In this document: piece by piece, positions 3,812 to 63,366 of the stretch
Numbering within the stretch: the stretch's first letter is position 1
How the letters are laid out: every line of letters starts with the position of its first letter
Assembly (NCBI RefSeq): GCF_030053115.1
Contig: NZ_CP125619.1
Coordinates: 2,615,501-2,679,500, forward strand
DNA: 64,000 nucleotides
Reading direction: 5' to 3'
Source: Pseudomonas svalbardensis
GTDB taxonomy: Bacteria; Pseudomonadota; Gammaproteobacteria; Pseudomonadales; Pseudomonadaceae
The notes under the pieces: generated by a model
Databases searched by the model: none
Seen by the model: only the letters and a program-made list of their open reading frames with translations
Told to the model about the DNA's origin: nothing
Program-made: the position numbers and the translations under genes

Positions 3812-4966
3812 ATGCGTAAGGCTTTAGCGACGATAAAACCGACGTGGGTGCTGGCGACCGTATTGGCATTGAACGGCTGTGGAGCACAGGATCAGTCCGC
3901 TGAACACAGTACGTCGCCGCCGCAGGTCAAGACGCTCACCGTGCAACCCCGACCGTTTGCCATGACCTCAGACCTGCCTGGCCGAATCGAACCGGTGCGC
4001 ATCGCCGAGGTGCGCGCACGAATTGCCGGTGTTGTGTTGACCCGTCATTTTGAAGAGGGCAGCGACGTCAAGGCTGGTCAACTGCTTTTCAGCATCGACC
4101 CGGCACCACTGAAGTCCGCCTTGATGCGGGTCGAAGGCGCCCTGGCCAAGACTGAGGCGGATGTCTATCGCGCCAACGCTCACGTACAGCGCTACAAACA
4201 ACTGGTGGAAATCAACGCTGTCAGCCCTCAGGTATTCGACGACGCGGTCTCTGATCTCAAGAGCGCCAAGGCTAACCGCCTGGCCGCTCAAGCCGATGTG
4301 GCGACCGCCCGACTCAACCTCGGTTACTGTCAGGTGCGAGCGCCGATCAGTGGCCGTATCGGCCGCGCCCTGGTCAGCGAGGGCGCACTGGTAGGCCAGG
4401 ACGAAGCCACGCAAATGGCGCGGATTCAGCAACTGGACCCGATTTACGCCGACTTTACCCAGTCCGTCGATCAGATCGTGGCCTTGCAGCAAGCCGTCGC
4501 CAGTGGTCGGTTGACCCTGACTGGAGCGGGCGCAGCGCAGGTGTCAATACAACTTGGCAGCCCGACACAAACCCGACAAGGCAAGCTGATGTTCTCCGAT
4601 ATTTCGGTCGATCGAAGCACCGGGCAAGTCACCTTGCGCGGCGAGTTTCCTAATCCGGACAGCGTACTTCTGCCTGGCATGTATGTGCGGGTCGTAGCGC
4701 CGGCGGGGATCGACCCGCAAGCGTTGTTCGTGCCGCAGCAAGCGGTGCAGCGTGGTGTCGACGGCCAGGCCAGGTTAATGCTGGTGGACTCCCAGGGGGT
4801 GGTGCGCGAACGCGTGGTCAGCACCGGCGCGATGCTTGGTTCCGACTGGCAGATCACTCAGGGACTAGTGGCCGGCGAGCAAGTGGTGGTCGAGCGCGCC
4901 GACAAGCTCAGTGTCGGCACCAGGGTCAACATAATCACCTCGGCCGAACAGCAGGCCCATAACTGA
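3812..4966 (+). CDS. RND efflux periplasmic adaptor lipoprotein
   Basis: This 384-residue membrane-fusion protein should bridge the inner-membrane RND pump and an outer-membrane channel. A lipoprotein signal with lipobox LNGC puts the acylated cysteine at residue 23. It is followed by the typical AcrA/MexA order of beta-barrel, lipoyl (VRARIAGVV and RAPISGRIG halves) and alpha-helical hairpin segments. I start at ATG 3812, with AGGGA 6 bases upstream. The upstream in-frame ATG at 3740 would bury the lipoprotein signal and is not used. The pump gene follows after 44 bases. No outer-membrane channel gene is seen, so a shared TolC/OprM-type channel is likely. Confidence 0.9.
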   Translation: MRKALATIKPTWVLATVLALNGCGAQDQSAEHSTSPPQVKTLTVQPRPFAMTSDLPGRIEPVRIAEVRARIAGVVLTRHFEEGSDVKAGQLLFSIDPAPLKSALMRVEGALAKTEADVYRANAHVQRYKQLVEINAVSPQVFDDAVSDLKSAKANRLAAQADVATARLNLGYCQVRAPISGRIGRALVSEGALVGQDEATQMARIQQLDPIYADFTQSVDQIVALQQAVASGRLTLTGAGAAQVSIQLGSPTQTRQGKLMFSDISVDRSTGQVTLRGEFPNPDSVLLPGMYVRVVAPAGIDPQALFVPQQAVQRGVDGQARLMLVDSQGVVRERVVSTGAMLGSDWQITQGLVAGEQVVVERADKLSVGTRVNIITSAEQQAHN

Positions 4967-5010
4967 GGGCGTGACGCTTTTACCCACGGTTGTTAGCCAG
5001 GATCTTACCG

Positions 5011-8000
5011 ATGCCCGATTTTTTCATTAACCGTCCGAACTTCGCCTGGGTCATCGCGTTGTTCATCGCGCTGGCAGGAGCGCTGACCCTGGGCACCTTG
5101 CCGGTCAGCCAATACCCGGACGTAGCACCGCCGCAAATCAGTGTCAGTGCCAGCTACCCCGGTGCCTCGGCGCAGATCATCAATCAGAACATCACCAGCC
5201 TGATCGAGGAGGAGCTCAACGGCCTCAAGGATTTGCTGTATTACGAATCCAACAGTGCCAACGGCAGTGCAGAAACCACCATCACCTTCAAGCCGGGCAT
5301 CGATCCCGACATGGCGCAGGTCGACGTCCAGAACCGCTTGCAACGGGTAGTCGGGCGCTTGCCCCAAGCGGTGATCGAGCAAGGCCTGAAAGTGGAACAG
5401 GTACGTGCCAATTTTCTGATGATCTATGCCTTGTCCTACACCGATGGGCAGCAGGATTCGATCGGGCTGGCGGATTACGCCGCGCGGGGCATCAATAACG
5501 AGATTCGCCGCGTGGCCGGAGTAGGGCGGGTGCAGATGTACACCGCCGAACGGGCCATGCGCATCTGGGTCGATCCTGCCCGGCTTGTGGGTTACAACCT
5601 GTCGATGGCCGATGTAAGTAAGGCCATCGCCGGACAGAACGTGCAAGTACCCGCCGGCAGCATGGGCGAACGTCCGGGGCCTGTCGAGCAGCACATTACC
5701 GCCACCGTCATGGTGCAGGGTCAGCTCGAATCCGTGGAGGCGTTCGGCAACATTGTGCTGTGGGCTAATGACGACGGCTCCAGTGTCAGGATTCACGATG
5801 TGGCCCGAGTCGAACTGGGTCGTCAGGACTACCGCTTCGACGCTCGCCTGAACGGCAGACCTGCGGCGGCCATGTCGGTGCAATTGGCGCCCGGTGCCAA
5901 CGCGCTGCAAACGGCGGCGGCGATCAAGGCCCGGCTGGATCAACTGTCGAGCACGCTGCCAACGAACATGACGCTGAGCGTGCCTTATGACACCTCATAC
6001 TTTGTCGACGTGGCGATCAAGCAAGTCATCTACACTTTGATCGAAGCCATGGTGCTGGTGTTTCTGGTGATGCTGCTGTTTTTGCAGAACCTGCGTTACA
6101 CGCTGATTCCGGCCATCGTGGTGCCGGTCTGCCTGTTGGGCACCCTCGCGGTGATGGCGCCGCTGGGGTTTTCGATCAACATGATGACCCTGTTTGGCAT
6201 GGTGCTGGCCATTGGCATTCTGGTGGACGACGCCATTGTCGTGGTAGAGAACGTCGAGCGCTTGATCACGCAGGAGCGCCTGTCGCCCAAAGACGCGACC
6301 CGCAAAGCGATGCGGCAGATCAGCGGGGCGATTGTCGGCATTACCCTGGTGCTGGCGGCGGTATTCCTGCCGTTGGCGTTCATGGGCGGTTCGGTGGGGG
6401 TGATCTACCAGCAGTTTTCCATGGCGCTGTCGGTGTCGATTCTATTCTCCGGGTTCCTGGCGTTGACCCTGACGCCGGCCCTGTGCGCCACCTTGCTCAA
6501 ACCCTTCGACCCGGCGAAAGAGCTACGACCCAACCGCTGGGCGAACGGCTTCAATCGACGCTTCGATGCCTTGGCCCGGCGCTACGAGCGGTTCAGTTCG
6601 AGCTGGGTCCGTCGCAGCACTCGCAGCATGGGCCTGTACCTTATGTTGTTGCTGGTACTCGCTTTTGCCTATCACCGATTGCCATCCTCATTCATGCCGT
6701 CCGAGGATCAGGGCTATATCATCACGGATATCCAGCTACCACCTGCAGCTTCGGCTTCGCGCACGGATGTGACGGTGCAAGCGTGGGAGCACTATGCCCT
6801 GGCGCAACCCGCCACGGATCAGGTGCTGGCAATCATGGGGTTCAGTTTTTCCGGGGTTGGGGCTAACGCGGCGTTGTCGTTTACCAGCCTCAAGGACTGG
6901 TCGGTTCGCGGCGATGGCCAGGCCAGCGACGCGGTGGCCCGACGCGCGAATGAGGCTTTTGAGAACGCCGCTGACGGCACGCTGTTCAGCGTGGTGCCGC
7001 CGCCGGTGGACGGCCTCGGCACCTCGAACGGTTTCGAGTTACGGTTGCAGGATCTGGCAGGGCAGGGGCACGAAGCGCTGTTGAAGGCCCGAACCCAATT
7101 ACTGGAGGCGGCCAAGGCGTCGCCGGTGATCGATTACCTGATGGAGGATGGCCTTGCGGATGCGCCTCAGATCAATGTCAGCATCGACCGCGAAAAAGCC
7201 GAAGCCCTCGGCGTGAGTTTTGATGTGATCAGTTCAGCGTTGTCCTCGGCGCTGGGTTCGGAACAAATCAATGAGTTTGCCAATCAGGGGCGGATGCAGC
7301 GGGTGATCGTTCAGGTGGACGGCATCAGCCGCCAGACGCCTGAAGCGCTGCTGCGCCTGCAAGTTCCCAACCGACAGAACCGATTGGTGCCACTGGAAGC
7401 CTTCAGTCGTTTTGAGTGGCAGGTCGGGCCACTGCAGATCGCGCGCTACAACGGGTCGGCGTCGCTGCGCTTTTCCGGTGATGCCGCGCCGGGTTACAGC
7501 ACCGGTCAAGCCATGGAAGAACTGCAGAAAATTGCCCGTCAGTTACCAGCCGGTTTTAGCCTTGAATGGGCCGGGCTGTCACTTCAGGAACAACAGGCCA
7601 GCGATCAGGTGCCGCTGCTGGTGGGGTTATCGTTGATCGTGGTGCTGCTGGTACTGGTGGCGCTGTATGAAAGCTGGACGATTCCCTTTGCCGTGCTGTT
7701 GATCGTGCCTGTCGGCATGCTCGGTTCGGTGGCCGCGGTGACGATCATGGGCCTGCCCAATGATGTCTATTTCAAGGTGGGGCTGATCACGATCATTGGA
7801 CTGGCGGCGAAGAATGCAATCCTCATCGTCGAGTTTGCCAAGGCACTTCACGTTCAGGGCGCGAGCCTTGCGCAAGCAGCGGCTCAGGCCGCGCGTCTGC
7901 GTTTTCGTCCGATCGTCATGACGTCCCTGGCCTTCATTCTCGGCGTGGTGCCTCTGGCTATTGCAACTGGTGCGGGAGCTGCCAGCCAGCGAGCGATCGG

Positions 8001-8151
8001 CACAGGCGTGATCGGCGGTATGCTGGCGGCGACAGTGCTCGGGGTCTTGTGGGTGCCGGTGTTCTTTGTCTGGGTCTTGTCCGCGGCAAATCGGTTGCGT
8101 AGTCGCCGTGTCAGCCTCACCGAGCCCGTGGCAGACGATGGAACGCGGTAA
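5011..8151 (+). CDS. RND family multidrug/metabolite efflux permease (HAE1 type)
   Basis: This 1046-residue proton-driven inner-membrane exporter is close to AcrB/MexB length. Visible signs are MPDFFINRPNFAWV at the start, the TM4 proton-relay pair in GILVDDAIVVVEN near residue 400, and the conserved lysine in AAKNAILIVEFAK near residue 935. Two copies of the porter and transmembrane halves are present. ATG 5011 has AGGA 8 bases upstream and is preferred over the TTG at 4990. It forms an operon with the adaptor and probably with the receptor and aminotransferase genes. Siderophore export is a reasonable guess, but multidrug efflux cannot be excluded. Confidence 0.92.
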   Translation: MPDFFINRPNFAWVIALFIALAGALTLGTLPVSQYPDVAPPQISVSASYPGASAQIINQNITSLIEEELNGLKDLLYYESNSANGSAETTITFKPGIDPDMAQVDVQNRLQRVVGRLPQAVIEQGLKVEQVRANFLMIYALSYTDGQQDSIGLADYAARGINNEIRRVAGVGRVQMYTAERAMRIWVDPARLVGYNLSMADVSKAIAGQNVQVPAGSMGERPGPVEQHITATVMVQGQLESVEAFGNIVLWANDDGSSVRIHDVARVELGRQDYRFDARLNGRPAAAMSVQLAPGANALQTAAAIKARLDQLSSTLPTNMTLSVPYDTSYFVDVAIKQVIYTLIEAMVLVFLVMLLFLQNLRYTLIPAIVVPVCLLGTLAVMAPLGFSINMMTLFGMVLAIGILVDDAIVVVENVERLITQERLSPKDATRKAMRQISGAIVGITLVLAAVFLPLAFMGGSVGVIYQQFSMALSVSILFSGFLALTLTPALCATLLKPFDPAKELRPNRWANGFNRRFDALARRYERFSSSWVRRSTRSMGLYLMLLLVLAFAYHRLPSSFMPSEDQGYIITDIQLPPAASASRTDVTVQAWEHYALAQPATDQVLAIMGFSFSGVGANAALSFTSLKDWSVRGDGQASDAVARRANEAFENAADGTLFSVVPPPVDGLGTSNGFELRLQDLAGQGHEALLKARTQLLEAAKASPVIDYLMEDGLADAPQINVSIDREKAEALGVSFDVISSALSSALGSEQINEFANQGRMQRVIVQVDGISRQTPEALLRLQVPNRQNRLVPLEAFSRFEWQVGPLQIARYNGSASLRFSGDAAPGYSTGQAMEELQKIARQLPAGFSLEWAGLSLQEQQASDQVPLLVGLSLIVVLLVLVALYESWTIPFAVLLIVPVGMLGSVAAVTIMGLPNDVYFKVGLITIIGLAAKNAILIVEFAKALHVQGASLAQAAAQAARLRFRPIVMTSLAFILGVVPLAIATGAGAASQRAIGTGVIGGMLAATVLGVLWVPVFFVWVLSAANRLRSRRVSLTEPVADDGTR

Positions 8152-8174
8152 CGTGGATTCAGCTCCCACGTTAC
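8148..8174. terminator. Bidirectional hairpin between convergent genes
   Basis: A perfect 9-bp inverted repeat, GTAACGTGG (8148-8156) and CCACGTTAC (8166-8174), carries the stop codons of both convergent genes in its arms. It can terminate in both directions, although the T-run on the plus side is short (ATTTTG). Confidence 0.6.
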
Positions 8175-8437
8175 ATTTTGCGGGCGCCGTTATGCCGGGC
8201 TGATGTGTCGGTCAGCAGTTTTTTCGATGTGCTTTGATTGTCGGGTAACTGGTCGCTGAGGTCCCAGATTTCAAGCATTTTGGCGTACTCGAATGCGTGA
8301 CGCGGATCGGTCTGAATCCACTGCTGAAACGCCAGGCGTTCTTCGGTCGTACAGGTGTCATCTTGCAGTCGCATACACCAATGCGCAGCTTGAGTGAGGA
8401 TTTCTTCGTCCATTTCGCAAGGGTTGGGGGGATTCAT
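8171..8437 (-). CDS. Orphan FecR N-terminal (DUF4880) domain protein
   Basis: The 88-residue product matches only the cytoplasmic N-terminal DUF4880 domain of FecR anti-sigma regulators (ILTQAAHWCMRLQ, then FQQWIQTDPRHAFEYAKM). FecR proteins are usually about 320 residues, with a transmembrane helix and a periplasmic signalling domain, and both are absent here. No FecI-type sigma gene is adjacent. It is either a truncated relic of a FecIR pair that once served the siderophore receptor or a small stand-alone sigma-binding protein. The reading frame is intact and ends cleanly in the shared hairpin. Confidence 0.6.
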   Translation of the reverse strand: MNPPNPCEMDEEILTQAAHWCMRLQDDTCTTEERLAFQQWIQTDPRHAFEYAKMLEIWDLSDQLPDNQSTSKKLLTDTSARHNGARKM

Positions 8438-8592
8438 TGACAGCTACCTGTATGGCCGGACAAGCCCCTCTACGAGAGCGATTGGTAAAAAAATGTCAAA
8501 AAAACCAAAACAAAACAGTCTTGCATCTAAATCTGGAGACTTGGACTCGAAGAATCTTTGCAAACCGTACATTTCTGAAAAGGAGTATTCGC

Positions 8593-8970
8593 ATGTACAA
8601 CCACTCAGCATCGGCACCCCCCGTTACGCAATTGCAATTCCAGAGAGCGGCAACTCAACGAGCATCCGAGTCAGATCGCGGCACAAATAAACATATCCGT
8701 GAGTTGCTGCGTTACTACGGACTGCGCACCAGCTTGATCCGCTTGAAAGTTATCGAGGCCTTGCTGGTCGCCGCCAGAGATGGACGTTCCATCAATGCGC
8801 GCGACGTGCATGCCTACCTGGAATCATTTGCTGCCGAGTTGTCGTTCATTTGTGTGCGTGAAGTGCTCAAACGCCTATGTGATGAAGGTGTAATCCTTTT
8901 TCAACCAGACAAGAGATACATCTTTACCACCGAAGCCTGCGCAATACTGGAACAGCACTCCGGTCGTTGA
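8593..8970 (+). CDS. Fur-family winged-helix regulator, DNA-binding domain only
   Basis: This 125-residue protein has a low-complexity N-terminus of about 35 residues and then a Fur-like winged helix (LLRYYGLRTSLIRLKVIEALL through VREVLKRLCDEGVI). It lacks the C-terminal metal-binding and dimerisation domain of true Fur/Zur proteins, including the histidine-rich motif. The start at ATG 8593 is set by AAAAGGAG just upstream; earlier in-frame starts give non-conserved sequence. The 150 bases before it are clearly more AT-rich than the surroundings. I recall similar proteins in Pseudomonas annotated as Fe2+/Zn2+ uptake regulators, but a metal role is unproven. Confidence 0.65.
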   Translation: MYNHSASAPPVTQLQFQRAATQRASESDRGTNKHIRELLRYYGLRTSLIRLKVIEALLVAARDGRSINARDVHAYLESFAAELSFICVREVLKRLCDEGVILFQPDKRYIFTTEACAILEQHSGR

Positions 8971-9132
8971 AGGCCTAAGGTGCCTCATCACTGGCCGTTT
9001 TTGGCTGTGGATTCAACCGGTCGATGCAACAGATTGGCTAAACCTTCAGTTCTTTCGTGTTCCGCGTATAACCAACGAAAGCTACGGGTCAAGGTATGGG
9101 CTGGTGGATTCTCACTAAACCCCAGAAACGAC

Positions 9133-9156
9133 AAAGCCCTGAATAATCAGGGCTTT
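9133..9156 (-). terminator. Terminator of tRNA-Ser
   Basis: A 10-bp perfect stem (AAAGCCCTGA / TCAGGGCTTT) with a 4-base loop lies 14 bases after the 3' end of the tRNA on the minus strand. Confidence 0.75.
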
Positions 9157-9169
9157 ATCGGTACAAATA

Positions 9170-9257
9170 TGGCGGAGGCGATGGGATTCGAACTCATGGA
9201 CCTGTTACAGTCGACGGTTTTCAAGACCGTTGCCTTAAACCACTCGGCCACACCTCC
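9170..9257 (-). tRNA. tRNA-Ser (anticodon TGA)
   Basis: The 88-base minus-strand gene folds as a class II tRNA. It has a GGAGGTG/CGCCTCC acceptor stem, anticodon loop CTTGAAA giving TGA, a long variable arm, TTCGAATC in the T loop and an encoded CCA end (9170-9172). Confidence 0.95.
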
Positions 9258-9380
9258 GTTTGCGTTGCGGGCGCCATAATACCTGAATGAAACACACTGT
9301 CAAACTCTCTGCATGGCTTGTTACAGAGCGTCTGTTATGATCTTTGCGACTGAACGTTTCAAACCAACAGGAGTATCGCC

Positions 9381-10052
9381 ATGCGCGAACAGGATTACGC
9401 AGTTAATAACAGCGTGCAGGCTGAGCAGCTAGAGGTTAGCCGCGTCCTGCGCAACACTTACGGCTTACTCGCTCTCACCCTCGCATTCAGCGGCGTGATG
9501 GCGTTTGTCGCGCAGCAGATGCGTGTCGGCTACCCGAATATTTTCGTGGTGCTGATCGGTTTCTACGGCCTTTTCTTCCTCACCAACAAACTCCGTGATT
9601 CGGCCTGGGGGCTGGTGTCGGCATTTGCCCTGACCGGTTTCATGGGTTTCCTGCTCGGCCCGATCCTCAACCGTTACCTGGGTATGCAGGGCGGCGCCGA
9701 GGTGGTCAGTTCGGCCTTCGCGATGACTGCGCTGGTGTTCGGCGGTCTGTCGGCTTATGTGCTGATTACCCGCAAGGACATGAGCTTCCTGGGTGGTTTC
9801 ATCACTGCAGGCTTCTTCGTGCTGCTGGGTGCGACGCTGGCGAGCCTGTTCTTTCAGATCAGCGGTCTGCAACTGGCGATCAGCGCAGGTTTCGTGCTGT
9901 TCTCCTCGGTCTGCATTCTGTTCCAGACCAGCGCCATCATTCACGGCGGCGAGCGCAACTACATCATGGCGACCATTAGCCTGTATGTATCGATCTACAA
10001 CCTGTTCGTCAGCTTGTTGCAGCTGTTCGGCATCATGAGCCGCGATGACTAA
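9381..10052 (+). CDS. yccA: Bax inhibitor-1/YccA family membrane protein
   Basis: This 223-residue integral inner-membrane protein has seven predicted hydrophobic helices. In E. coli YccA is a substrate and modulator of the FtsH protease. Family signs are the N-terminal NTYGLLALTLAFSGVMAF, an acidic-free core of small residues, and the C-terminal YVSIYNLFVSLLQLFGI. ATG 9381 follows CAGGAG. The gene is alone between tRNA-Ser and a strong terminator, so it is probably monocistronic. The family assignment is firm; the physiological role is only known by homology. Confidence 0.9.
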   Translation: MREQDYAVNNSVQAEQLEVSRVLRNTYGLLALTLAFSGVMAFVAQQMRVGYPNIFVVLIGFYGLFFLTNKLRDSAWGLVSAFALTGFMGFLLGPILNRYLGMQGGAEVVSSAFAMTALVFGGLSAYVLITRKDMSFLGGFITAGFFVLLGATLASLFFQISGLQLAISAGFVLFSSVCILFQTSAIIHGGERNYIMATISLYVSIYNLFVSLLQLFGIMSRDD

Positions 10053-10068
10053 TCGTCAGCCTTGAGGA

Positions 10069-10094
10069 AAAAACCCGCTTCGGCGGGTTTTTTC
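10069..10094 (+). terminator. Rho-independent terminator after yccA
   Basis: AAACCCGC and GCGGGTTT pair around a TTCG tetraloop (10071-10090), followed by a T-run, 17 bases after the stop codon. Confidence 0.9.
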
Positions 10095-10117
10095 TTGCCT
10101 GCGATTTGAGTTAAGGG

Positions 10118-10555
10118 TCACGCCATCGGTGGCAAGCGGCGCTTGACCGGGGTTTTCTTGACGATTGCAGTGTTGGTTTCGGCGTGGGTGTTTAGACGAT
10201 CGAGCAGGGTGTCCAGTTGTTCCATCGAACGCACATGCAGGCGGGCGATGAAACAGTCGTCGCCGGTGACTTTGTCGCACTCCGTGAACTCCGGGATGGC
10301 CTGAATCTGCCGTTCCACTTCCTGCAACTGGCCTGGCAGCGGACGAATACGGACGATGGCCTGGAGTTGATAGCCAAAGCATTTGGGGTCGATCTCGACG
10401 GTGTAACCCTTGAGCACACCACGCTCTTCGAGGCGGCGCAAACGCTCGGCGACGCTGGGCGAAGACAGGCCGCTGATTTGCGCCAGAGCCTTGAGCGAGC
10501 GGCGTGAGTCTTCCATCAATGCCGTGATCAGCACTTGGTCGATATCGTCGGTCAT
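10118..10555 (-). CDS. Lrp/AsnC family transcriptional regulator
   Basis: This 145-residue protein has an N-terminal helix-turn-helix (residues 5-50, including SRRSLKALAQISGLSSPSVAERLRRLEERGVL) and a C-terminal RAM/AsnC ligand domain (QLQAIVRIRPLPG through MEQLDTLLDRL). ATG 10555 has AGGGG upstream; the longer open frame upstream is not conserved-looking. It is divergent from the DMT transporter that starts 135 bases away, so it may control that exporter, as often seen for Lrp-exporter pairs. The effector amino acid is unknown. Confidence 0.88.
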   Translation of the reverse strand: MTDDIDQVLITALMEDSRRSLKALAQISGLSSPSVAERLRRLEERGVLKGYTVEIDPKCFGYQLQAIVRIRPLPGQLQEVERQIQAIPEFTECDKVTGDDCFIARLHVRSMEQLDTLLDRLNTHAETNTAIVKKTPVKRRLPPMA

Positions 10556-10690
10556 GGCGAAACCCCTATTAGGCAAAAAATTCAAACCGCCTTGATAAAA
10601 AAGGCAGATTTCGAGTTTAGCCTGCTTTTTGCGCTGGAGAAGCTCCTCGGCGGATTGGCATACTTTGGGCTCAAACACAGGAGTCTGATG

Positions 10691-11587
10691 ATGGACAAAA
10701 CAATACGTCACGGGTCATTCGAAATGACCGCCGCCATGCTGATTTCCGGGACCATCGGCTGGTTCGTGCTGGTGTCCGGGCAACCGGTGCTGGACGTAGT
10801 GTTCTGGCGTTGCGTGTTCGGCGCCGGCACGTTGTTGCTGATCTGCGCGGCATTCGGCTTCCTGCGCCCCGGCATTCTGACCCGCACCACCTTCTTGCTG
10901 GCCGTGCTCAGCGGCGTGGCGATTGTCGGCAACTGGGTGCTGTTGTTTGCTTCTTACTCCCGCGCCTCGATTGCCATCGGCACCGCGGTATACAACGTTC
11001 AACCGTTCATGCTGGTGGGGTTGGCCGCGTTGTTCCTCAACGAGAAAATCACCCTGCAGAAACTGTTTTGGCTGGGCATTTCGTTTCTCGGGATGCTGGC
11101 GATTGTCAGCGCACATGGCGGGCAGGGCGAGAGCGGCAATGATTACCTGATAGGCATCGCTCTGGCGCTGGGGGCGGCATTCCTTTACGCGATTGCCGCG
11201 TTGATCATCAAACGACTGACCGGCACACCGCCGCATCTGATCGCGTTGGTCCAGGTCACCACCGGCGTGCTGTTACTCGCGCCATTCGCGCACTTTTCGG
11301 CACTGCCGCAAGCGCCGAGCGCGTGGGCCAGTCTGGTCACCCTGGGCATTGTCCACACCGGCGTGATGTACGTGCTGCTCTACGGCGCGATTCAAAAACT
11401 GCCGACGGCACTGACCGGTGCGTTGTCCTTCATCTACCCGATTGCGGCGATTTTCGTTGACTGGTTTGCCTTCGGCCATCGCCTGGAACCGCTGCAATGG
11501 ATCGGTGTTGCCGCGATTCTGTTGGCCGCTGCCGGCATGCAACAAGGTTGGAGCCTTAAGTTTCGTCAGACGGTGACGACGCAGTAA
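10691..11587 (+). CDS. EamA/DMT superfamily transporter
   Basis: This 298-residue inner-membrane protein has ten hydrophobic helices arranged as two EamA repeats (GTIGWFVLVSG in the first, GAAFLYAIAALIIKRLTG in the second). Members export amino acids or other metabolites, or act as chloramphenicol-resistance RarD-like proteins. Two adjacent ATG codons (10688, 10691) are possible; AGGAG at 10679-10683 is better spaced for 10691. A divergent Lrp-type regulator is next door, which hints at amino-acid export. The substrate is not identifiable. Confidence 0.85.
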   Translation: MDKTIRHGSFEMTAAMLISGTIGWFVLVSGQPVLDVVFWRCVFGAGTLLLICAAFGFLRPGILTRTTFLLAVLSGVAIVGNWVLLFASYSRASIAIGTAVYNVQPFMLVGLAALFLNEKITLQKLFWLGISFLGMLAIVSAHGGQGESGNDYLIGIALALGAAFLYAIAALIIKRLTGTPPHLIALVQVTTGVLLLAPFAHFSALPQAPSAWASLVTLGIVHTGVMYVLLYGAIQKLPTALTGALSFIYPIAAIFVDWFAFGHRLEPLQWIGVAAILLAAAGMQQGWSLKFRQTVTTQ

Positions 11588-11601
11588 GCCGTAAAGAAAC
11601 G

Positions 11602-12642
11602 TCACATGTTCCAGCGCGGTGCTGTCTTGGCCAGGCGCTGGCGCATCTCGTCGATGTTGGCGGCTAATTGCCGGACCAATAACCGATAGCCGTCCAGCTG
11701 ATTGTAAACCGGCGCGGTCAGGCTTGAATCCGACGGCAGTTCGACGGGCCGACTGAGCCGCTGGGACGCACCGGATTTCAGCGCCCGGGCCATACCGATC
11801 AGTTGCACCCGAATCAACCGATGTTCGGCTTTCAAGGCCGATTGCAGATGGGCCATGGCGTCCGGGTCACTGGCATCCGGTCGGGTGTTGCCGAGGATTT
11901 CCAGGGTGCTGACGCACATCCGCAAGTGGCGCTGAATGGCATCGAGTTCGGTCATGGAGATCCGTACTTCCTTGGACACCGACGGCATCAACGAGCGCAG
12001 TTGCACCATCACCGTGTTCAGGCGGCCCACCAGTTTATGGTGTTCGTCATCGGTGACCGATTGGCCATTGATGATGCGCCCGTAGATCGTCGCGCAGTCG
12101 CGCAAGGCATCGGCCAGGTTGTAGCGCCAGGAATAAACCGCGTAGAGCGGCAAGGCGAAAGAAAACGCCAGGGCCAGGGCGATGCCGATCAGGATGTCCA
12201 CCCCACGCCACAACCCGTCGGTGATCGGATTGTCGCCATGCCCCGCGACGATAAACACGGTAATCGCCGAGAGCAACGCGGTGTAACCGCCCTTGCCGAT
12301 GGCGTGGTACGAGAAGAACCCGCAGACCACGGCCATCGCGAAATAGGTCAGCCACGGCATCCCCAGCCAGGCCTGTTGCGCCACCAGCAGCAAGCCGACG
12401 CCGGCTCCGATCAAGGTGCCGATGGCGCGTTCGGCGGCTTTTTTGCCGATGTTGCCGTGGTGCTGCAAACCGCCAATCACCACCAGCATCGTCACCGACG
12501 CCCACTCACCGTGGGGCAGATTGATGCCGGTGGTCAGCAGGATCGTTGCCAGCAACCCCAGCGACACACGTACCGCGTGGATCACTCTGGCGTGGCGATA
12601 GCGCCGGTACGGGTCCAGCAAAGGACGCAGCAGTCGGCGCAT
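11602..12642 (-). CDS. FUSC family membrane protein (YccS/aromatic acid exporter-like)
   Basis: The 346-residue protein has about six N-terminal transmembrane helices (residues 25-180, with GEWASVTMLVVIGGLQHHGNI and the GTLIGAGVGLLLV segment) and a soluble C-terminal half. That matches the FUSC domain of aromatic carboxylic acid exporters and YccS-like proteins, although these are often about 700 residues with two copies. ATG 12642 has no clear Shine-Dalgarno sequence, so the start is less certain. It lies 47 bases downstream of the aldehyde dehydrogenase gene and may be cotranscribed with it. Confidence 0.75.
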   Translation of the reverse strand: MRRLLRPLLDPYRRYRHARVIHAVRVSLGLLATILLTTGINLPHGEWASVTMLVVIGGLQHHGNIGKKAAERAIGTLIGAGVGLLLVAQQAWLGMPWLTYFAMAVVCGFFSYHAIGKGGYTALLSAITVFIVAGHGDNPITDGLWRGVDILIGIALALAFSFALPLYAVYSWRYNLADALRDCATIYGRIINGQSVTDDEHHKLVGRLNTVMVQLRSLMPSVSKEVRISMTELDAIQRHLRMCVSTLEILGNTRPDASDPDAMAHLQSALKAEHRLIRVQLIGMARALKSGASQRLSRPVELPSDSSLTAPVYNQLDGYRLLVRQLAANIDEMRQRLAKTAPRWNM

Positions 12643-12689
12643 TAGCGGTGGCAGTCGATGGGCTCTGAATGTGCTCAGGCTCGGTCTCC

Positions 12690-14315
12690 TCAGAAGATGT
12701 AATCGGTGCTCAGGAAGCTCGAACTGCGTCCGCTGATGATCTCGCTGATGAGTTCTTTGTTGGTTTCCTGGAACTTGGTCGCCACCAGTGTCCGGATCGA
12801 GAACACCCGCAACGCATCATGCACCGACAGCGTGCCTTCGGCGGAGTTCTTGCGGCCGTTGAACGGGAAGGTGTCCGGGCCGCGCTGGCACTGGGCGTTG
12901 AGGTTGATCCGGCCGACCTGGTTGGCGAAGGTGTCCACCAGCCGGCCGACCGCCACCGGGTTGGTGCCGAAGATACTCAGCTGCTGGCCGAAGTCCGATT
13001 CCAGGACGTAATCGATCACCGTGTCCAGATGCCGGTAAGGCACGATCGGCACGACCGGGCCGAACTGTTCTTCCTGATAGACGCGCATTTGCGGCGTTAC
13101 CGGGTACAGCACGGCGGGGTAGAAGAACGAAGCGCGGGCTTCACCACCATTTGGGTTGACCACGGCGGCGCCTTTGCTCACGGCATCCGCCACCAGCGAG
13201 TGCAGGTAATCGACTTTGCTCGCTTCGGGCAACGGCGTCAGCGCCACACCGCTGTCCCACGGCATGCCGGGTCTGAGGTTGGCGAGTTTGGCGTTGAATT
13301 TCTCGATGAACGAGTCGACCACGTCTTCATGGACGAAGAGGATTTTCAACGCGGTGCAACGCTGACCATTGAACGACAGCGAGCCGGTAAGTGCTTCGCT
13401 GACCGCGTTGTCCAGATCCACCTCAGGCAGCACGATGCCGGGGTTTTTCGCGTCCAGGCCCAACGCCGCGCGCAAGCGGTGCGGCTTTGGATGCAGTTTT
13501 TTCAGGTCGCTGGCAGCTTTGTTGGTGCCGATAAACGCAAAGATATCGATCTTGCCGCTGGCCATCAGCGCGCTGACGGTCTCGCGGCCACTGCCGTAGA
13601 TCACGTTGATCACCCCGGCCGGGAAGCTGTCGCGGAACGCTTCCAGCAACGGACGAATCAGCAGCACACCCAGCTTGGCCGGTTTGAACACCACGGTGTT
13701 GCCCATGATCAGCGCCGGGATCAGCGTGGTGAAGGTTTCGTTCAGCGGGTAGTTGTAAGGTCCCATGCACAACGCCACACCCAGCGGTACGCGGCGGATC
13801 TGGCCGAGGGTGTCCTGTTCCAGTTCGAAGCGACTGGAGCGGCGGTCGAGTTCCTTGAGCGCGTTGATGGTGTCGACGATGTAATCGCAGGTGCGGTCGA
13901 ACTCTTTCTCCGAGTCCTTGAGGTTCTTGCCGATTTCCCACATCAGCAACTTGACCACGGCTTCGCGCTGTTCACGCATGCGTCCGAGGAAGGCTTCTAC
14001 GTGCTGGATGCGTTCGGCCACCCGCATCGTCGGCCATAGGCCCTGGCCCCGGTCATAGGCACGGACGGCGGCGTCGAGGGCGGTCAATGCGGTGTCGGCA
14101 TCGAGCAGCGGCGTGCTGCCGAGGATCACTTGTTCGTCGCCATTTTCGCCGGTCAGGTACACCGGGCTGCGGACTTCGGCGAGGGGCCCTGACCAGGTTT
14201 TCAGCTCGCCGTCGACCAGGTATTCACGTTGCTCGGTCTGGCCGTCGAGTCGGTATTTTTCCGGAATGTCGCTGGAGTCGGGAAACAGGTTGCCAAGGAT
14301 GTGTGCTGTGGTCAT
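12690..14315 (-). CDS. NADP-dependent glyceraldehyde-3-phosphate dehydrogenase-like ALDH
   Basis: This 541-residue cytoplasmic aldehyde dehydrogenase is closest in motif to GapN, which oxidises glyceraldehyde-3-phosphate to 3-phosphoglycerate with NADP. The Rossmann segment includes NTVVFKPAK. The catalytic cysteine is Cys320 in FNGQRCTALK. The usual general-base glutamate, 34 residues before the cysteine in the LELGGK motif, is replaced: the sequence reads ALGLDAKNP, with Gly286 at that site. The start at ATG 14315 avoids a 9-residue non-conserved extension. The divergent DyP peroxidase gene lies 185 bases away. Enzyme class is firm; substrate and activity are less so because of the missing glutamate. 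Confidence 0.75.
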   Translation of the reverse strand: MTTAHILGNLFPDSSDIPEKYRLDGQTEQREYLVDGELKTWSGPLAEVRSPVYLTGENGDEQVILGSTPLLDADTALTALDAAVRAYDRGQGLWPTMRVAERIQHVEAFLGRMREQREAVVKLLMWEIGKNLKDSEKEFDRTCDYIVDTINALKELDRRSSRFELEQDTLGQIRRVPLGVALCMGPYNYPLNETFTTLIPALIMGNTVVFKPAKLGVLLIRPLLEAFRDSFPAGVINVIYGSGRETVSALMASGKIDIFAFIGTNKAASDLKKLHPKPHRLRAALGLDAKNPGIVLPEVDLDNAVSEALTGSLSFNGQRCTALKILFVHEDVVDSFIEKFNAKLANLRPGMPWDSGVALTPLPEASKVDYLHSLVADAVSKGAAVVNPNGGEARASFFYPAVLYPVTPQMRVYQEEQFGPVVPIVPYRHLDTVIDYVLESDFGQQLSIFGTNPVAVGRLVDTFANQVGRINLNAQCQRGPDTFPFNGRKNSAEGTLSVHDALRVFSIRTLVATKFQETNKELISEIISGRSSSFLSTDYIF

Positions 14316-14500
14316 GTCGCTACTCCATGTGATGTAAGCCATGCGCTGGCGGCTTGCCGTTCAGATTCACTTCAAAGGTTATACGCCTTATTGGCACGAC
14401 TTTTTAAGTGCCGATCTCATGATCCCGCGATCTTTTGACCTGAGAACACACAACGGCCGATGCTGCGGTTAAACTTCGCGCTCTTTCTAAAGGAGTTCAT

Positions 14501-15388
14501 ATGAGTTACTACCAGCCGGGCATTCTCGCCACCCCAGTTCCGCCTCAAGCCCGTCATATGTTCTTCGCACTCGAATCCGCCGCTGCCTTGCCGGCCGCGC
14601 TGGAGAATCTTAAGGGACTGGTGGACGGGAAGTCGGCAGTGGTCGGTTTCGGTGAATCCCTGGTCAAGGCCCTCAAGGGGCAAATCGAAGGCCTGCGCGC
14701 CTTTCCAGCGTTGACCGGTGTCGGCGTCGACAACCCGTCGACCCAGCACGCGCTCTGGTGCTGGTTGCACGGTGTCGACCGTGGCGAATTGCTCAACCGC
14801 AGCAACGCCATCGAAGCGGCGCTGGCCCCGGCCCTGCGCCTGGTGCAGATGAACGAAACCTTCCGCCACCTTACCGGCCACGACCTGACCGGTTATGAAG
14901 ACGGCACCGAAAACCCTCACGACGAAGCCGCCGTCGCCGCTGCGCTGGTGAGTGACGGCGCTGACGGAATGGTCGGCGGCAGTTTCGCTGCGATTCAGCA
15001 GTGGCAGCACGACCTGAAGGGCTTCCACGCGATGCCGTCCCATGAGAAGGACAACATCATGGGCCGTCGTTTGAGCGACAACGAAGAGATTGACGACGCG
15101 CCGATCTCTGCTCACGTGAAACGCACCGCCCAGGAAAGCTTCGCCCCCGAGGCCTTCGTGGTGCGCCGTTCCATGCCCTGGATCGAAGGCGATCGCGCCG
15201 GCCTGATGTTCCTGGCCTTCGGTTTCTCCCTCGACGCCTTCGAAGCTCAACTACGCCGCATGAGCGGACTGGAAGACGGCATCACCGACGGTTTGTACCG
15301 CATCAGCCGGCCGATCACCGGCGGCTACTATTGGTGCCCGCCGCTCAAGGACGGTCATCTGGACCTGCGCGCGCTGCGCATCGGCTAA
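14501..15388 (+). CDS. DyP-type peroxidase (YfeX-like)
   Basis: This 295-residue heme peroxidase lacks a Tat signal, so it is probably cytoplasmic, as for E. coli YfeX. It has the DyP signature GYEDGTENP with the catalytic aspartate near residue 134. A conserved histidine in SAHVKRT near residue 205 is the probable heme ligand, and the FLAFGFSLDAFE C-terminal segment is present. ATG 14501 follows AAAGGAG. The next gene is an NAD-linked oxidoreductase 16 bases downstream, suggesting an operon. Natural substrate unknown; porphyrinogen or dye oxidation is typical of the family. Confidence 0.88.
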   Translation: MSYYQPGILATPVPPQARHMFFALESAAALPAALENLKGLVDGKSAVVGFGESLVKALKGQIEGLRAFPALTGVGVDNPSTQHALWCWLHGVDRGELLNRSNAIEAALAPALRLVQMNETFRHLTGHDLTGYEDGTENPHDEAAVAAALVSDGADGMVGGSFAAIQQWQHDLKGFHAMPSHEKDNIMGRRLSDNEEIDDAPISAHVKRTAQESFAPEAFVVRRSMPWIEGDRAGLMFLAFGFSLDAFEAQLRRMSGLEDGITDGLYRISRPITGGYYWCPPLKDGHLDLRALRIG

Positions 15389-55030: not shown

Positions 55031-57046
55031 ATGCAGAGCACGCTGATCGCAGTAGGATGTAACCGCTTGCACAAACGCGATGGCAGTCAGGTCGCCTTCG
55101 ATGCCGACAAAATCCGTCAGGCATTGATCGCTGCCGGCAAGGCGACGGGGGAGTACGGCGAGGTTGAGGTTGAAGGCTTGCTTCAGGCGGTGTTGGCCAG
55201 GCTCGAAGGATTGCCAAGACTCCACGTCGAGCAAATCCAGGACCGTGTTGAGCGGGTGTTGATGGACGCCGGTTTTTTCCTCGCCATGCGGGCCTACATC
55301 GTCTACCGCGAACAGCACGGGCGCTTGCGCCGCGACCGGCGGACCCTGGTCGAAGTCGCGACCTCAATGAACGAATACCTGAATCGTGAAGACTGGCGGG
55401 TCCAGGCCAACGCCAATCAGGGTTACTCCCTGGGCGGTCTGGTGTTGAACGTGTCGGGCAAGGTGACCGCCAACTACTGGCTGGACGAGGTGTACAGCGA
55501 GGCCATCGGCCAAGCTCACCGCGAGGCGGATTTGCATGTGCACGACCTCGACATGCTGGCCGGTTACTGCGCTGGCTGGTCGCTGCGCACCCTGTTGCAC
55601 GAAGGGCTCAACGGTGTGCCGGGGCGTGTCGAAGCCGGTCCGCCGAAGCACTTGAGCAGTGCCCTGGGGCAGATGGTGAATTTCCTCGGCACCCTGCAAA
55701 ACGAATGGGCCGGCGCCCAGGCGTTCAGCTCGTTCGACACCTACCTGGCGCCCTATGTGCGCAAGGATCAATTGAACTTTCAGGAGGTGCGCCAAGCGAT
55801 TCAGGAGTTCATCTACAACCTCAATGTGCCCTCGCGCTGGGGCACCCAGACGCCGTTCACCAACCTGACCTTCGACTGGGTGTGCCCGCAGGATTTGCGG
55901 GAGCAGATACCCGTCATCGGCGGTGAGGAAATGCCATTTGCCTATGGCGACCTGCAAGTCGAAATGGAGCTGCTCAACCGCGCTTACATCGAGGTGATGC
56001 AGGCCGGCGATGCGAAAGGGCGGGTGTTCACCTTTCCGATCCCGACCTACAACATCACCCACGACTTTCCGTGGGACAGTGAAAACGCCGACCGCCTGTT
56101 CGAGATGACCGCGCGTTACGGCTTGCCGTACTTCCAGAACTTTCTCAATTCGGACCTGCAACCCAATCAGGTGCGCTCGATGTGCTGCCGTTTGCAGCTG
56201 GATGTTCGCGAGTTGCTCAAACGTGGCGGCGGCTTGTTCGGCTCGGCGGAGCAGACCGGATCGCTCGGCGTCGTCACCATCAACTGCGCGCGGTTGGGCT
56301 ATGTGTTCAAGGGTGATACCAGCGGTTTGCTGCAGCGTCTGGACACGCTGATGGAACTGGCGATGGAAAGCCTGGAGGTCAAACGCAAGGTGATTCAGCA
56401 CCACATGGATGCCGGTTTGTACCCATACACCAAGCGATACCTCGGAACCCTGCGCAACCATTTTTCCACCATCGGCCTCAACGGCATGCATGAAATGCTG
56501 CGCAATTTCACCGGTAACGAGGAGGGCATGCACACCGAGCACGGCCGTCAGTTTGCCCTGAAGATGCTCGATCATGTGCGTGCCACGTTGCTGCGTTTCC
56601 AGGAAGAAACCGGCCACATGTACAACCTGGAAGCGACGCCCGCCGAGGGCACGACCTACCGCTTCGCCAAGGAAGACCTCAAGCGCTACCCCGATATTCT
56701 CCAGGCCGGCAGCGCGCAAGCGCCGTATTACACCAACTCCTCGCAACTGCCCGTGGGCTACACCGAAGACCCCTTCGAGGCCCTGGAACTTCAAGACGAG
56801 CTGCAATGCAAATACACCGGCGGCACGGTCTTGCACCTGTACATGGCCGAGCGGATTTCTTCGACCGAGGCCTGCAAGCAACTGGTGCGCAAAGCCCTTG
56901 GCCGCTTCCGCCTGCCGTACCTGACCGTGACCCCGACATTCTCCATCTGCCCGGTGCACGGCTACCTTGATGGCGAGCATGAATTCTGCCCCAAGTGCGA
57001 CGAAGCACTGCTGCTGCAAGAGCAGAAGCTCGGCACCGTTCATTGA
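55031..57046 (+). CDS. nrdD: Class III ribonucleoside triphosphate reductase, catalytic part (NrdD without glycyl domain)
   Basis: The 671-residue protein has an N-terminal ATP-cone (residues 5-100) and the NrdD barrel (for example MCCRLQLDVRELL and GSLGVVTINCARLGY). It ends just after the zinc site CPVHGYLDGEHEFCPKCDEALL. The glycyl radical motif expected at the C-terminus is missing. It is supplied in trans by the small gene 32 bases downstream. The enzyme makes deoxynucleotides without oxygen, using formate in most class III enzymes. ATG 55031 follows TGGAGG. The intact stop and following ribosome site argue against a simple frameshift. Confidence 0.9.
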   Translation: MQSTLIAVGCNRLHKRDGSQVAFDADKIRQALIAAGKATGEYGEVEVEGLLQAVLARLEGLPRLHVEQIQDRVERVLMDAGFFLAMRAYIVYREQHGRLRRDRRTLVEVATSMNEYLNREDWRVQANANQGYSLGGLVLNVSGKVTANYWLDEVYSEAIGQAHREADLHVHDLDMLAGYCAGWSLRTLLHEGLNGVPGRVEAGPPKHLSSALGQMVNFLGTLQNEWAGAQAFSSFDTYLAPYVRKDQLNFQEVRQAIQEFIYNLNVPSRWGTQTPFTNLTFDWVCPQDLREQIPVIGGEEMPFAYGDLQVEMELLNRAYIEVMQAGDAKGRVFTFPIPTYNITHDFPWDSENADRLFEMTARYGLPYFQNFLNSDLQPNQVRSMCCRLQLDVRELLKRGGGLFGSAEQTGSLGVVTINCARLGYVFKGDTSGLLQRLDTLMELAMESLEVKRKVIQHHMDAGLYPYTKRYLGTLRNHFSTIGLNGMHEMLRNFTGNEEGMHTEHGRQFALKMLDHVRATLLRFQEETGHMYNLEATPAEGTTYRFAKEDLKRYPDILQAGSAQAPYYTNSSQLPVGYTEDPFEALELQDELQCKYTGGTVLHLYMAERISSTEACKQLVRKALGRFRLPYLTVTPTFSICPVHGYLDGEHEFCPKCDEALLLQEQKLGTVH

Positions 57047-57078
57047 TTTCGATCCACTCTACTGCAAGGAGCTTCACC

Positions 57079-57246
57079 ATGACTGCATCGCAAACATTGC
57101 CCCAGGCTCAACGTCAACGCTGCGAAGTCTGGACTCGGGTAATGGGCTATCACCGCCCTGTGTCGGCGTTCAATCCGGGCAAACAGTCGGAGCACCGCGA
57201 GCGGGTGCACTTCACTGAAAGCGCGGCGCTGGCCGGGCGCCAATGA
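57079..57246 (+). CDS. Separate glycyl-radical domain subunit of NrdD
   Basis: The 55-residue protein contains CEVWTRVMGYHRPVSAFNPG, which is the C-terminal glycyl-radical segment of class III ribonucleotide reductase. Gly23 is the likely radical residue, in RVMGY. It has its own AAGGAG (57066-57071) and ATG, lies 32 bases after the nrdD stop in another frame, and overlaps nrdG by 4 bases. Added to the 671-residue NrdD it gives 726 residues, a normal full-length enzyme. It should sit in the NrdD active site and be activated by NrdG, much as GrcA/YfiD replaces the glycyl domain of pyruvate formate-lyase. Confidence 0.85.
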   Translation: MTASQTLPQAQRQRCEVWTRVMGYHRPVSAFNPGKQSEHRERVHFTESAALAGRQ

Positions 57247-57938
57247 GTCGAACGCTTCGGGTCGGGGGCATGGTGCCCCTGACCACTATCGACTATCCGG
57301 GACAGCTCGCCTGCGTGTTGTTTTGCCAGGGTTGCGCCTGGCGTTGTCGTTACTGCCATAACCCGCAGTTGATCCCGCCTCGTGGCACAGACGAAGTGGA
57401 TTGGCGCCGGGTGTTGGCGTTTCTGCAACGGCGTCAGGACCTGCTCGATGCCGTGGTGTTCAGTGGCGGCGAGCCCACCTTGCAAGACGGTTTGCTCGGC
57501 GCCATGGATGAGGTGCGGGCGATGGGATTTCGCATCGGTTTGCACAGCGCCGGCATCAAACCCGCCGCGTTCGCCAAGGCTCTGACCGGGGCCGATTGGG
57601 TCGGTTTCGATGTCAAGGCGTTACCCGAAGATTGCCAGGCGATCACCCGGGTCGAGGGCAGCGGAACCGCTAACTGGCGCAGCCTTGAGCATCTGCTGGC
57701 CAGCGGTGTCGACTACGAGTGTCGCACCACTGTGCATTGGCATCTGTTCGAGCCGGTGCGTCTGCTGATCCTCGCCAAGCGCTTGAGCGAACTCGGCGTC
57801 AAACGCTTCGCCGTGCAGATGGTTCGCACCGAGCGGATGTTCGATCCGCTGTTGCCAAGTGTTTCGGCACAAGCCTTGCTACCTGAGCTGTGGGAGGCCA
57901 TGCGCGAGTTGTTTCCAGCCTTCGTGTTACGGGGGTAA
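57243..57938 (+). CDS. nrdG: Anaerobic ribonucleotide reductase activase NrdG
   Basis: The 231-residue radical-SAM activase generates the glycyl radical on the NrdD system. The cluster motif is CAWRCRYC near residue 31, and FSGGEPTLQ follows near residue 76. The ATG at 57243 overlaps the stop of the glycyl-domain gene, so both are coupled. It is longer than E. coli NrdG (154) and resembles the larger activase type. Confidence 0.9.
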   Translation: MSRTLRVGGMVPLTTIDYPGQLACVLFCQGCAWRCRYCHNPQLIPPRGTDEVDWRRVLAFLQRRQDLLDAVVFSGGEPTLQDGLLGAMDEVRAMGFRIGLHSAGIKPAAFAKALTGADWVGFDVKALPEDCQAITRVEGSGTANWRSLEHLLASGVDYECRTTVHWHLFEPVRLLILAKRLSELGVKRFAVQMVRTERMFDPLLPSVSAQALLPELWEAMRELFPAFVLRG

Positions 57939-63352: not shown

Positions 63353-63366
63353 TTGATCCGTATCAA
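63353..63366. promoter_or_regulatory. ANR/DNR box upstream of DUF3079 gene
   Basis: TTGATCCGTATCAA is a perfect consensus FNR/ANR box, 62 bases before the DUF3079 start. Confidence 0.85.

Follow-up and report, generated by a model that had tools for sequence, protein, structure and literature searches.

The locus examined here, situated within a window of 64,000 nucleotides (the whole stretch of DNA analysed) of Pseudomonas svalbardensis, raises the question of where a class III ribonucleotide reductase carries its radical glycine when the catalytic chain, NrdD, ends without a glycyl-radical segment. The initial annotation had described an nrdD gene that ends just past its zinc motif, followed by a small gene with its own AAGGAG and ATG, located 32 bases downstream in a different frame and overlapping nrdG by 4 bases, and had pointed out that the two pieces sum to a normal length (671+55=726). 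This description agreed in every detail with the reading frames and coordinates obtained here (Table 1), with 32 bases separating the stop codon of nrdD from the ATG of the small gene, differing frames and an ATGA overlap with nrdG.

Table 1. Coordinates of the class III ribonucleotide reductase locus (positions are those of the window)
Feature	Positions	Strand	Description
Perfect ANR/FNR-type box TTGATATCGATCAA	54932..54945	+	85 bases 5' of the nrdD ATG
nrdD	55031..57046	+	Class III ribonucleotide reductase catalytic subunit, 671 aa; ATG at 55031, TGA at 57044-57046
Shine-Dalgarno AAGGAG of the small gene	57066..57071	+	7-base spacer to the ATG
Small gene, predicted 55-aa glycyl-radical subunit (proposed name NrdD-beta or GRD subunit)	57079..57246	+	ATG at 57079
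Gly23 codon, predicted radical site in RVMGY	57145..57147	+	Alignment to a known class III chain
nrdG, radical-SAM activase, NrdG2 family	57243..57938	+	ATG at 57243; TIGR02495, 209.2 bits (cut-off 131.15)

NrdD was found to possess an ATP-cone, an MCCR finger loop (M384, C385, C386 and R387, invariant in all 14 alignment rows) and a full zinc motif (C640, H643, C653 and C656), and to score 1125.3 bits against NCBIfam NF006126 (cut-off 548). The matches to catalytic-barrel models, the finger-loop cysteines and the adjacent nrdG gene are those of a class III NrdD, except that the radical glycine segment is missing from the C-terminus of the chain. Against the 562 positions of Pfam model PF13597, NrdD covered positions 2-528 (579.6 bits) and stopped there, and positions 531-562 were matched by the small protein (36.9 bits, E 2.3e-9, cut-off 26.2). 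The only other family returned for the small protein at E values of up to 1 was DUF6191 (E 0.24, below its cut-off), and the pyruvate formate-lyase radical domain gave no match in this Pfam search at the same threshold.

Alignment of both pieces to a known NrdD, for which the initial annotation had named E. coli or Lactococcus, was performed with the Thermotoga maritima chain (4coi), on which they proved complementary: NrdD aligned up to residue 613 and the small protein aligned, gap-free, to residues 606-646, a match that is weak when taken alone (E 1.4). In this alignment, Gly23 of the small protein is predicted to correspond to Gly621, the radical-bearing glycine of T. maritima NrdD (PMC4493059). 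The identification of the small protein as a putative radical domain is carried by the Pfam and NCBIfam matches and not by the T. maritima alignment. The initial annotation had also considered a second full-length nrdD elsewhere; sequence searches of the one-contig 6.36 Mb genome returned a single nrdD and a single small gene, the sole other NrdD match (37% identity over residues 7-101) representing the ATP-cone part within a 971-residue open frame.

Comparison of 162 split junctions revealed that the small gene starts with ATG in every case, at a distance of -41 to 298 bases from the nrdD stop codon (median 31, with 22 overlapping; in L079 the start falls within nrdD). Frame offsets of 0, 1 and 2 relative to nrdD were observed at 35, 65 and 62 junctions, respectively, and 29 of the 35 same-frame junctions contained exactly one stop codon between the two parts. 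In 159 of the 162 cases (all but L176, L185 and L189), the start was preceded by 4 to 7 bases resembling a Shine-Dalgarno sequence, a count that does not constitute independent evidence because the start was chosen partly by that match. The exception is where an alignment shows the match to be fixed: at the 19 Pseudomonas junctions whose gap is 32 bases and whose small protein has 55 residues, AAGGA was identical throughout and the last G was present in 89%.

The small gene is under strong purifying selection, with a radical segment as constrained as the zinc region of nrdD: among 35 distinct 55-codon Pseudomonas copies, dN/dS was 0.165 for the whole gene and 0.04 for codons 12-45, compared with 0.039 for nrdD around the zinc motif, on which that alignment was anchored. 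The RVMGY loop and its glycine were invariant in 24 aligned small proteins. Furthermore, in three genomes (G951, G1036 and G1037) the small gene lies away from nrdD, yet is then followed by nrdG, the two genes being ~9.5 kb from nrdD in G951. In the other two (loci L153 and L157), titled Alphaproteobacteria and Holosporaceae, it is located on another contig, before an nrdG that shares 42-44% identity with the nrdG of the window. That the small gene stays with nrdG and not with nrdD is in keeping with a protein on which the activase acts.

To establish how widespread this arrangement is, genomes were surveyed at the levels of genus, class and phylum. Within the genus, 298 genomes were searched, of which 72 had an nrdD match and 71 exceeded the Pfam cut-off; junctions were taken from the window and from one locus in each of the other 70 genomes, leaving out two extra nrdD copies in G169. 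The gene was split in 70 of these 71 genomes and fused in one (G285). Several other genus genomes in which both matches fell within one long frame were considered as fusions and rejected, as a stop codon separates the parts in each. The junction survey suggested in the initial annotation therefore disposes of a local sequencing error, which that annotation had named as a possible refutation, because the same break recurs in 70 of 71 genomes. The class survey covered 369 genomes, 38 of which exceeded the cut-off (including the window; the partial or weak G464, G527 and G634 were left out), and among 34 other genomes examined, 27 were split and 7 fused, with the fused L102 judged from its Pfam match only. 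At phylum level, 398 genomes were searched and 56 exceeded the cut-off; 13, including the window, were split by junction (the split ones overlapping the class set), and the other 43 were judged by match pattern (G1016 was seen to be fused), most of them reaching model position 562 in one frame.

Among the named loci, which represent the best 80 of 565 confirmed relatives, 66 were split, 10 fused and 4 without a tail in reach. The 10 fused loci comprised six from Actinomycetota, two from Maricaulis, one from a Desulfovibrio MAG and one from another proteobacterial MAG. The split form was observed in Beta-, Gamma- and Alphaproteobacteria, on a Campylobacterota plasmid and in a small number of MAGs assigned to other phyla; the suggestion in the initial annotation that it may be lineage-wide holds across the genus and was otherwise too narrow. 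Splits in MAGs of candidate phyla and other groups, including those assigned to Gracilibacteria, Uhrbacteria, Omnitrophota and Zipacnadia (L185, L189, L156 and L167), may represent horizontal transfers or binning errors. Among plasmids, 29 of 72,556 records contained a small-protein match, and the two annotated plasmid records opened, from Cupriavidus necator H16 and Sulfuricurvum kujiense, carry the three genes in the same order. Protein searches returned 2064 and 4160 short proteins at E values of up to 1e-3, with lengths bounded by the search and with some possibly being contig-end fragments; the database names encountered included 'oxidoreductase', 'hypothetical protein' and 'anaerobic ribonucleoside-triphosphate reductase'.

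The phylogenetic tree required seven changes between the fused and split states; it was not used for rooting or dating the split because the distant outgroup rows have extreme branches (two distant rows, L103 and L105, are fused but carried no label, and the fused label of L102 was assigned manually). L004, the fused locus of G285, sits within a starred set of 16 rows, assigned by name or kinship to the family of the window; 15 of these rows are split, and this nesting suggests a re-fusion. The match of this fused Pseudomonas NrdD covers query residues 102-656, without the ATP-cone region.

A scan of IMG/VR with the alignment of 24 small proteins yielded 245 pattern matches, of which 213 were confirmed and the best 80 taken (L206-L285). 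All 80 viral contigs (best of 213) were strikingly without the catalytic barrel: only the PF13597 tail exceeded the cut-off in whole-record searches of these best 80, G1052 having a second, sub-threshold match to PF13597 positions 486-538, and neither NrdD nor NrdG was found beside the small gene in the DNA around these best 80 of 213 at the thresholds used. Absence of the barrel from a viral contig is not proof, because no record states completeness. The radical glycine was kept in 80 of 80 copies, which represented 61 distinct cores with a median best identity to bacterial copies of 84% over a 37-residue core (with a single truncated copy entered as zero). Ten large proteins from ten viral contigs included five of portal/head-tail, terminase, tape-measure or tail-fibre families, one with a weak structural match, two associated with DNA metabolism and two without a match. 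On the 74-kb contig of L208, the small gene is located among thymidylate synthase, DNA polymerase and clamp-loader genes, and the viral neighbourhoods that were inspected were of a replication or structural nature. A class I/II reductase large subunit was found in none of 34 viral records searched, mostly longer ones. Among isolate phages, one of 50,697 records matched and was annotated as an anaerobic reductase.

A solo small gene was also found in G564 (L192, contig C3, about 4100-15000), besides the genome's own trio; the stretch that holds it also encodes SSB, RecT, RecE-like and RadC-like proteins and a reductase large subunit of the class I/II type, and it looks like a prophage. As regards the small protein itself, some viral copies (L210, L211, L222, L228, L237, L247, L248, L261, L264 and L265) appear to possess, ahead of the radical segment, a cysteine-rich N-terminal extension of the approximate form C-H ... 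C ... GR ... C ... C ... AY. A further cysteine at residue 15 of the window protein (57121-57123), eight residues N-terminal to the radical glycine, is present in 162 of 163 bacterial copies, 75 of 80 viral copies and all 10 fused named loci.

Upstream of nrdD, a nitrate-respiration cluster was identified, encoding two NarK-type transporters and the nitrate reductase alpha and beta subunits according to the open reading frames, and a nitrate reductase gamma subunit, a PpiC-type protein and MoaA according to Pfam. The perfect motif TTGATNNNNATCAA occurs twice within the window, compared with 0.04 matches expected from shuffles. The box at 54932-54945 matches the ANR/FNR-type consensus; a second perfect box is located at 63353-63366.

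In the cited literature, NrdDG was reported to be essential for complete denitrification in C. necator H16 (PMC2864759, citing Siedow 1999), where the gene is split into H16_RS32680 and H16_RS32675, which encode a pair of 676 and 66 aa, with nrdG as H16_RS32670. For strain CH34, the same passage gives Rmet_5137 and Rmet_5139 as NrdDG and does not mention the tag between (PMC2864759), which we infer to be the small gene. In Pseudomonas aeruginosa, loss of nrdD was reported to strongly reduce anaerobic growth (PMC4860495), and the anaerobic defects of the mutant were complemented by an nrdDG fragment (PMC4860495, PMC5645315); a 48-residue small protein is filed under P. aeruginosa in the protein search, by species label only. 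Given these phenotypes, the split enzyme is very probably functional, and the small protein is the one place where a radical glycine segment could be found for it. The literature searched, which did not extend to bioRxiv and most subscription journals, yielded no description of a separate NrdD radical subunit (an earlier mention in Siedow 1999 is possible) and no biochemical, EPR, proteomic or ribosome-profiling report on the small protein.

These observations are in our judgement very likely to reflect a three-gene class III enzyme in which NrdG would radicalize Gly23 of the small subunit, which would dock into NrdD in trans. By analogy with known class III enzymes, from which the steps are taken, NrdD would supply the ten-stranded barrel and the zinc motif as well as the substrate and allosteric sites, with the radical glycine residing on the separately translated 55-residue subunit. 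NrdG would abstract the hydrogen of Gly23, probably once the small subunit is bound to NrdD; the RVMGYHRPVSAFN loop would then dock by the finger-loop cysteines of NrdD and pass the radical to a finger-loop cysteine, so that catalysis would start in trans. The glycine is the point at which oxygen cleaves glycyl radical enzymes, and a cheap small replacement is the argument made for YfiD (PMC8683613); cleavage here would cost a 55-residue protein and not one of 726 residues, a logic that the solo viral copies also fit. A trans glycyl-radical subunit had already been proposed in the initial annotation, and the reading frames, the selection, the copies apart from nrdD and the solo viral copies lend sequence-based support to that proposal. 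Also counted in favour of the three-gene reading are the natural fusions of both parts, seen in one of the 71 genus genomes and in 10 of the named loci (the best 80 of 565), and the fact that NrdD and the small protein are complementary halves of one Pfam model and one T. maritima chain. Counted against it are L153 and L157, in which the small gene is missing from the 2.4 kb downstream of nrdD and was found elsewhere in the genome; the MAG G1035 (locus L126), one of six genomes searched, in which a split-type NrdD was present and the genome search for a small gene was empty; and the MAG G1038 (locus L183), whose small-gene copy has a stop codon inside the matched stretch.

The two parts might alternatively be joined during translation, by a programmed frameshift or stop-codon readthrough, or the break might be an assembly error. 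Fused relatives and the same-frame junctions (35 of 162, 29 of them with exactly one stop codon between) would be in keeping with joining; however, the occurrence of all three frame offsets excludes one programmed frameshift or readthrough, and the gaps of up to 298 bases, the ATG at 162 of 162 junctions, the Shine-Dalgarno-like match of at least 4 bases before 159 of 162 starts (the start being partly chosen by it), the gene apart from nrdD in three genomes and its stand-alone state in 80 of 80 viral contigs (best of 213) make such joining or misassembly extremely improbable. Decay of the class III enzyme to a non-functional state in Pseudomonas is hardly conceivable: nrdD exceeded the cut-off in only 71 of the 298 genus genomes, and P. 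aeruginosa possesses reductases of classes I and II as well (PMC4860495), but dN/dS is near 0.04 in the conserved segments of both parts, a perfect ANR/FNR-type box lies upstream, and P. aeruginosa nrdD mutants have anaerobic defects (PMC4860495, PMC5645315).

The small protein might instead serve only as a spare part, GrcA-like, for an oxygen-damaged full-length NrdD, which would follow the same logic as YfiD and Y06I (PMC8683613) and which the solo viral copies resemble. As no NrdD with its own radical segment was seen in this genome or in the surveyed split genomes, many of which are drafts, an exclusively spare-part function is very unlikely at this locus, although such a role could still be true for the viral copies. 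It is highly improbable, too, that the small protein is radical-free and regulates or scaffolds NrdG or NrdD; its gene adjoins nrdG even where nrdD is elsewhere, but the strong constraint, the RVMGY loop invariant in 24 aligned copies and the lack of any other radical glycine segment in NrdD by Pfam point to a radical-bearing protein.

Compared with the class III NrdD of Escherichia coli, T4, T. maritima and Prevotella copri, the window system shares the sequence family, the ATP-cone, the zinc motif, the neighbouring NrdG, the MCCR finger loop of the double-cysteine subclass (MGCR/MCCR classes as in PMC9669993) and a radical loop that can be aligned to T. maritima residues 606-646. It differs in that the predicted radical domain is a separate polypeptide, whereas the class III storage radical is tabulated in a review as 'glycine in enzyme' (PMC4390871). 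Judged from sequence, the system shows every feature of a class III ribonucleotide reductase that was tested, with the exception of a radical segment in the same chain.

GrcA/YfiD of E. coli and Y06I of phage T4, which duplicate the C-terminal radical domain of pyruvate formate-lyase and act in trans (PMC8683613), likewise represent a small, separately encoded radical domain that also occurs in phage. The likeness to GrcA noted in the initial annotation would hold for the way of working but not for the spare role or the sequence family: GrcA/YfiD rescues an oxygen-cleaved enzyme, whereas the small protein of the window would be the sole radical domain, and it belongs to PF13597 and not to the pyruvate formate-lyase family. 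The split class II NrdJa/NrdJb of P. aeruginosa is also a reductase of the same genus in two chains (PMC9669993, PMC4860495), but is B12-dependent and without a glycyl radical. Phage nrdA and nrdD genes split by introns, inteins or homing endonucleases are similarly in pieces, those splits being tied to mobile elements or sporadic fragmentation (PMC3653736); the window-type split, in contrast, is common to many genera and located at a domain border.

The glycyl radical is usually described as residing within the NrdD chain, a description from which a separate-subunit form departs. We lean, with some reserve, towards an ancient and widespread two-subunit class III form whose radical domain would be exchangeable after oxygen damage, and of which phages would carry only the ~50-residue subunit to keep the host enzyme in radical during infection. 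A natural radical carrier of 50-60 residues would allow swapping, labelling and mutation without touching the barrel, and would render radical transfer and recognition by NrdG directly testable. Whether glycyl radical enzymes besides pyruvate formate-lyase have spare-part proteins was a question raised in a 2021 paper (PMC8683613), and this small-protein family, hidden behind generic database names, offers a concrete candidate answer. Work on NrdD in Pseudomonas and Cupriavidus that was framed as nrdDG would have an unnamed third component, and the viral copies suggest that a very small phage gene may boost the anaerobic supply of DNA precursors.
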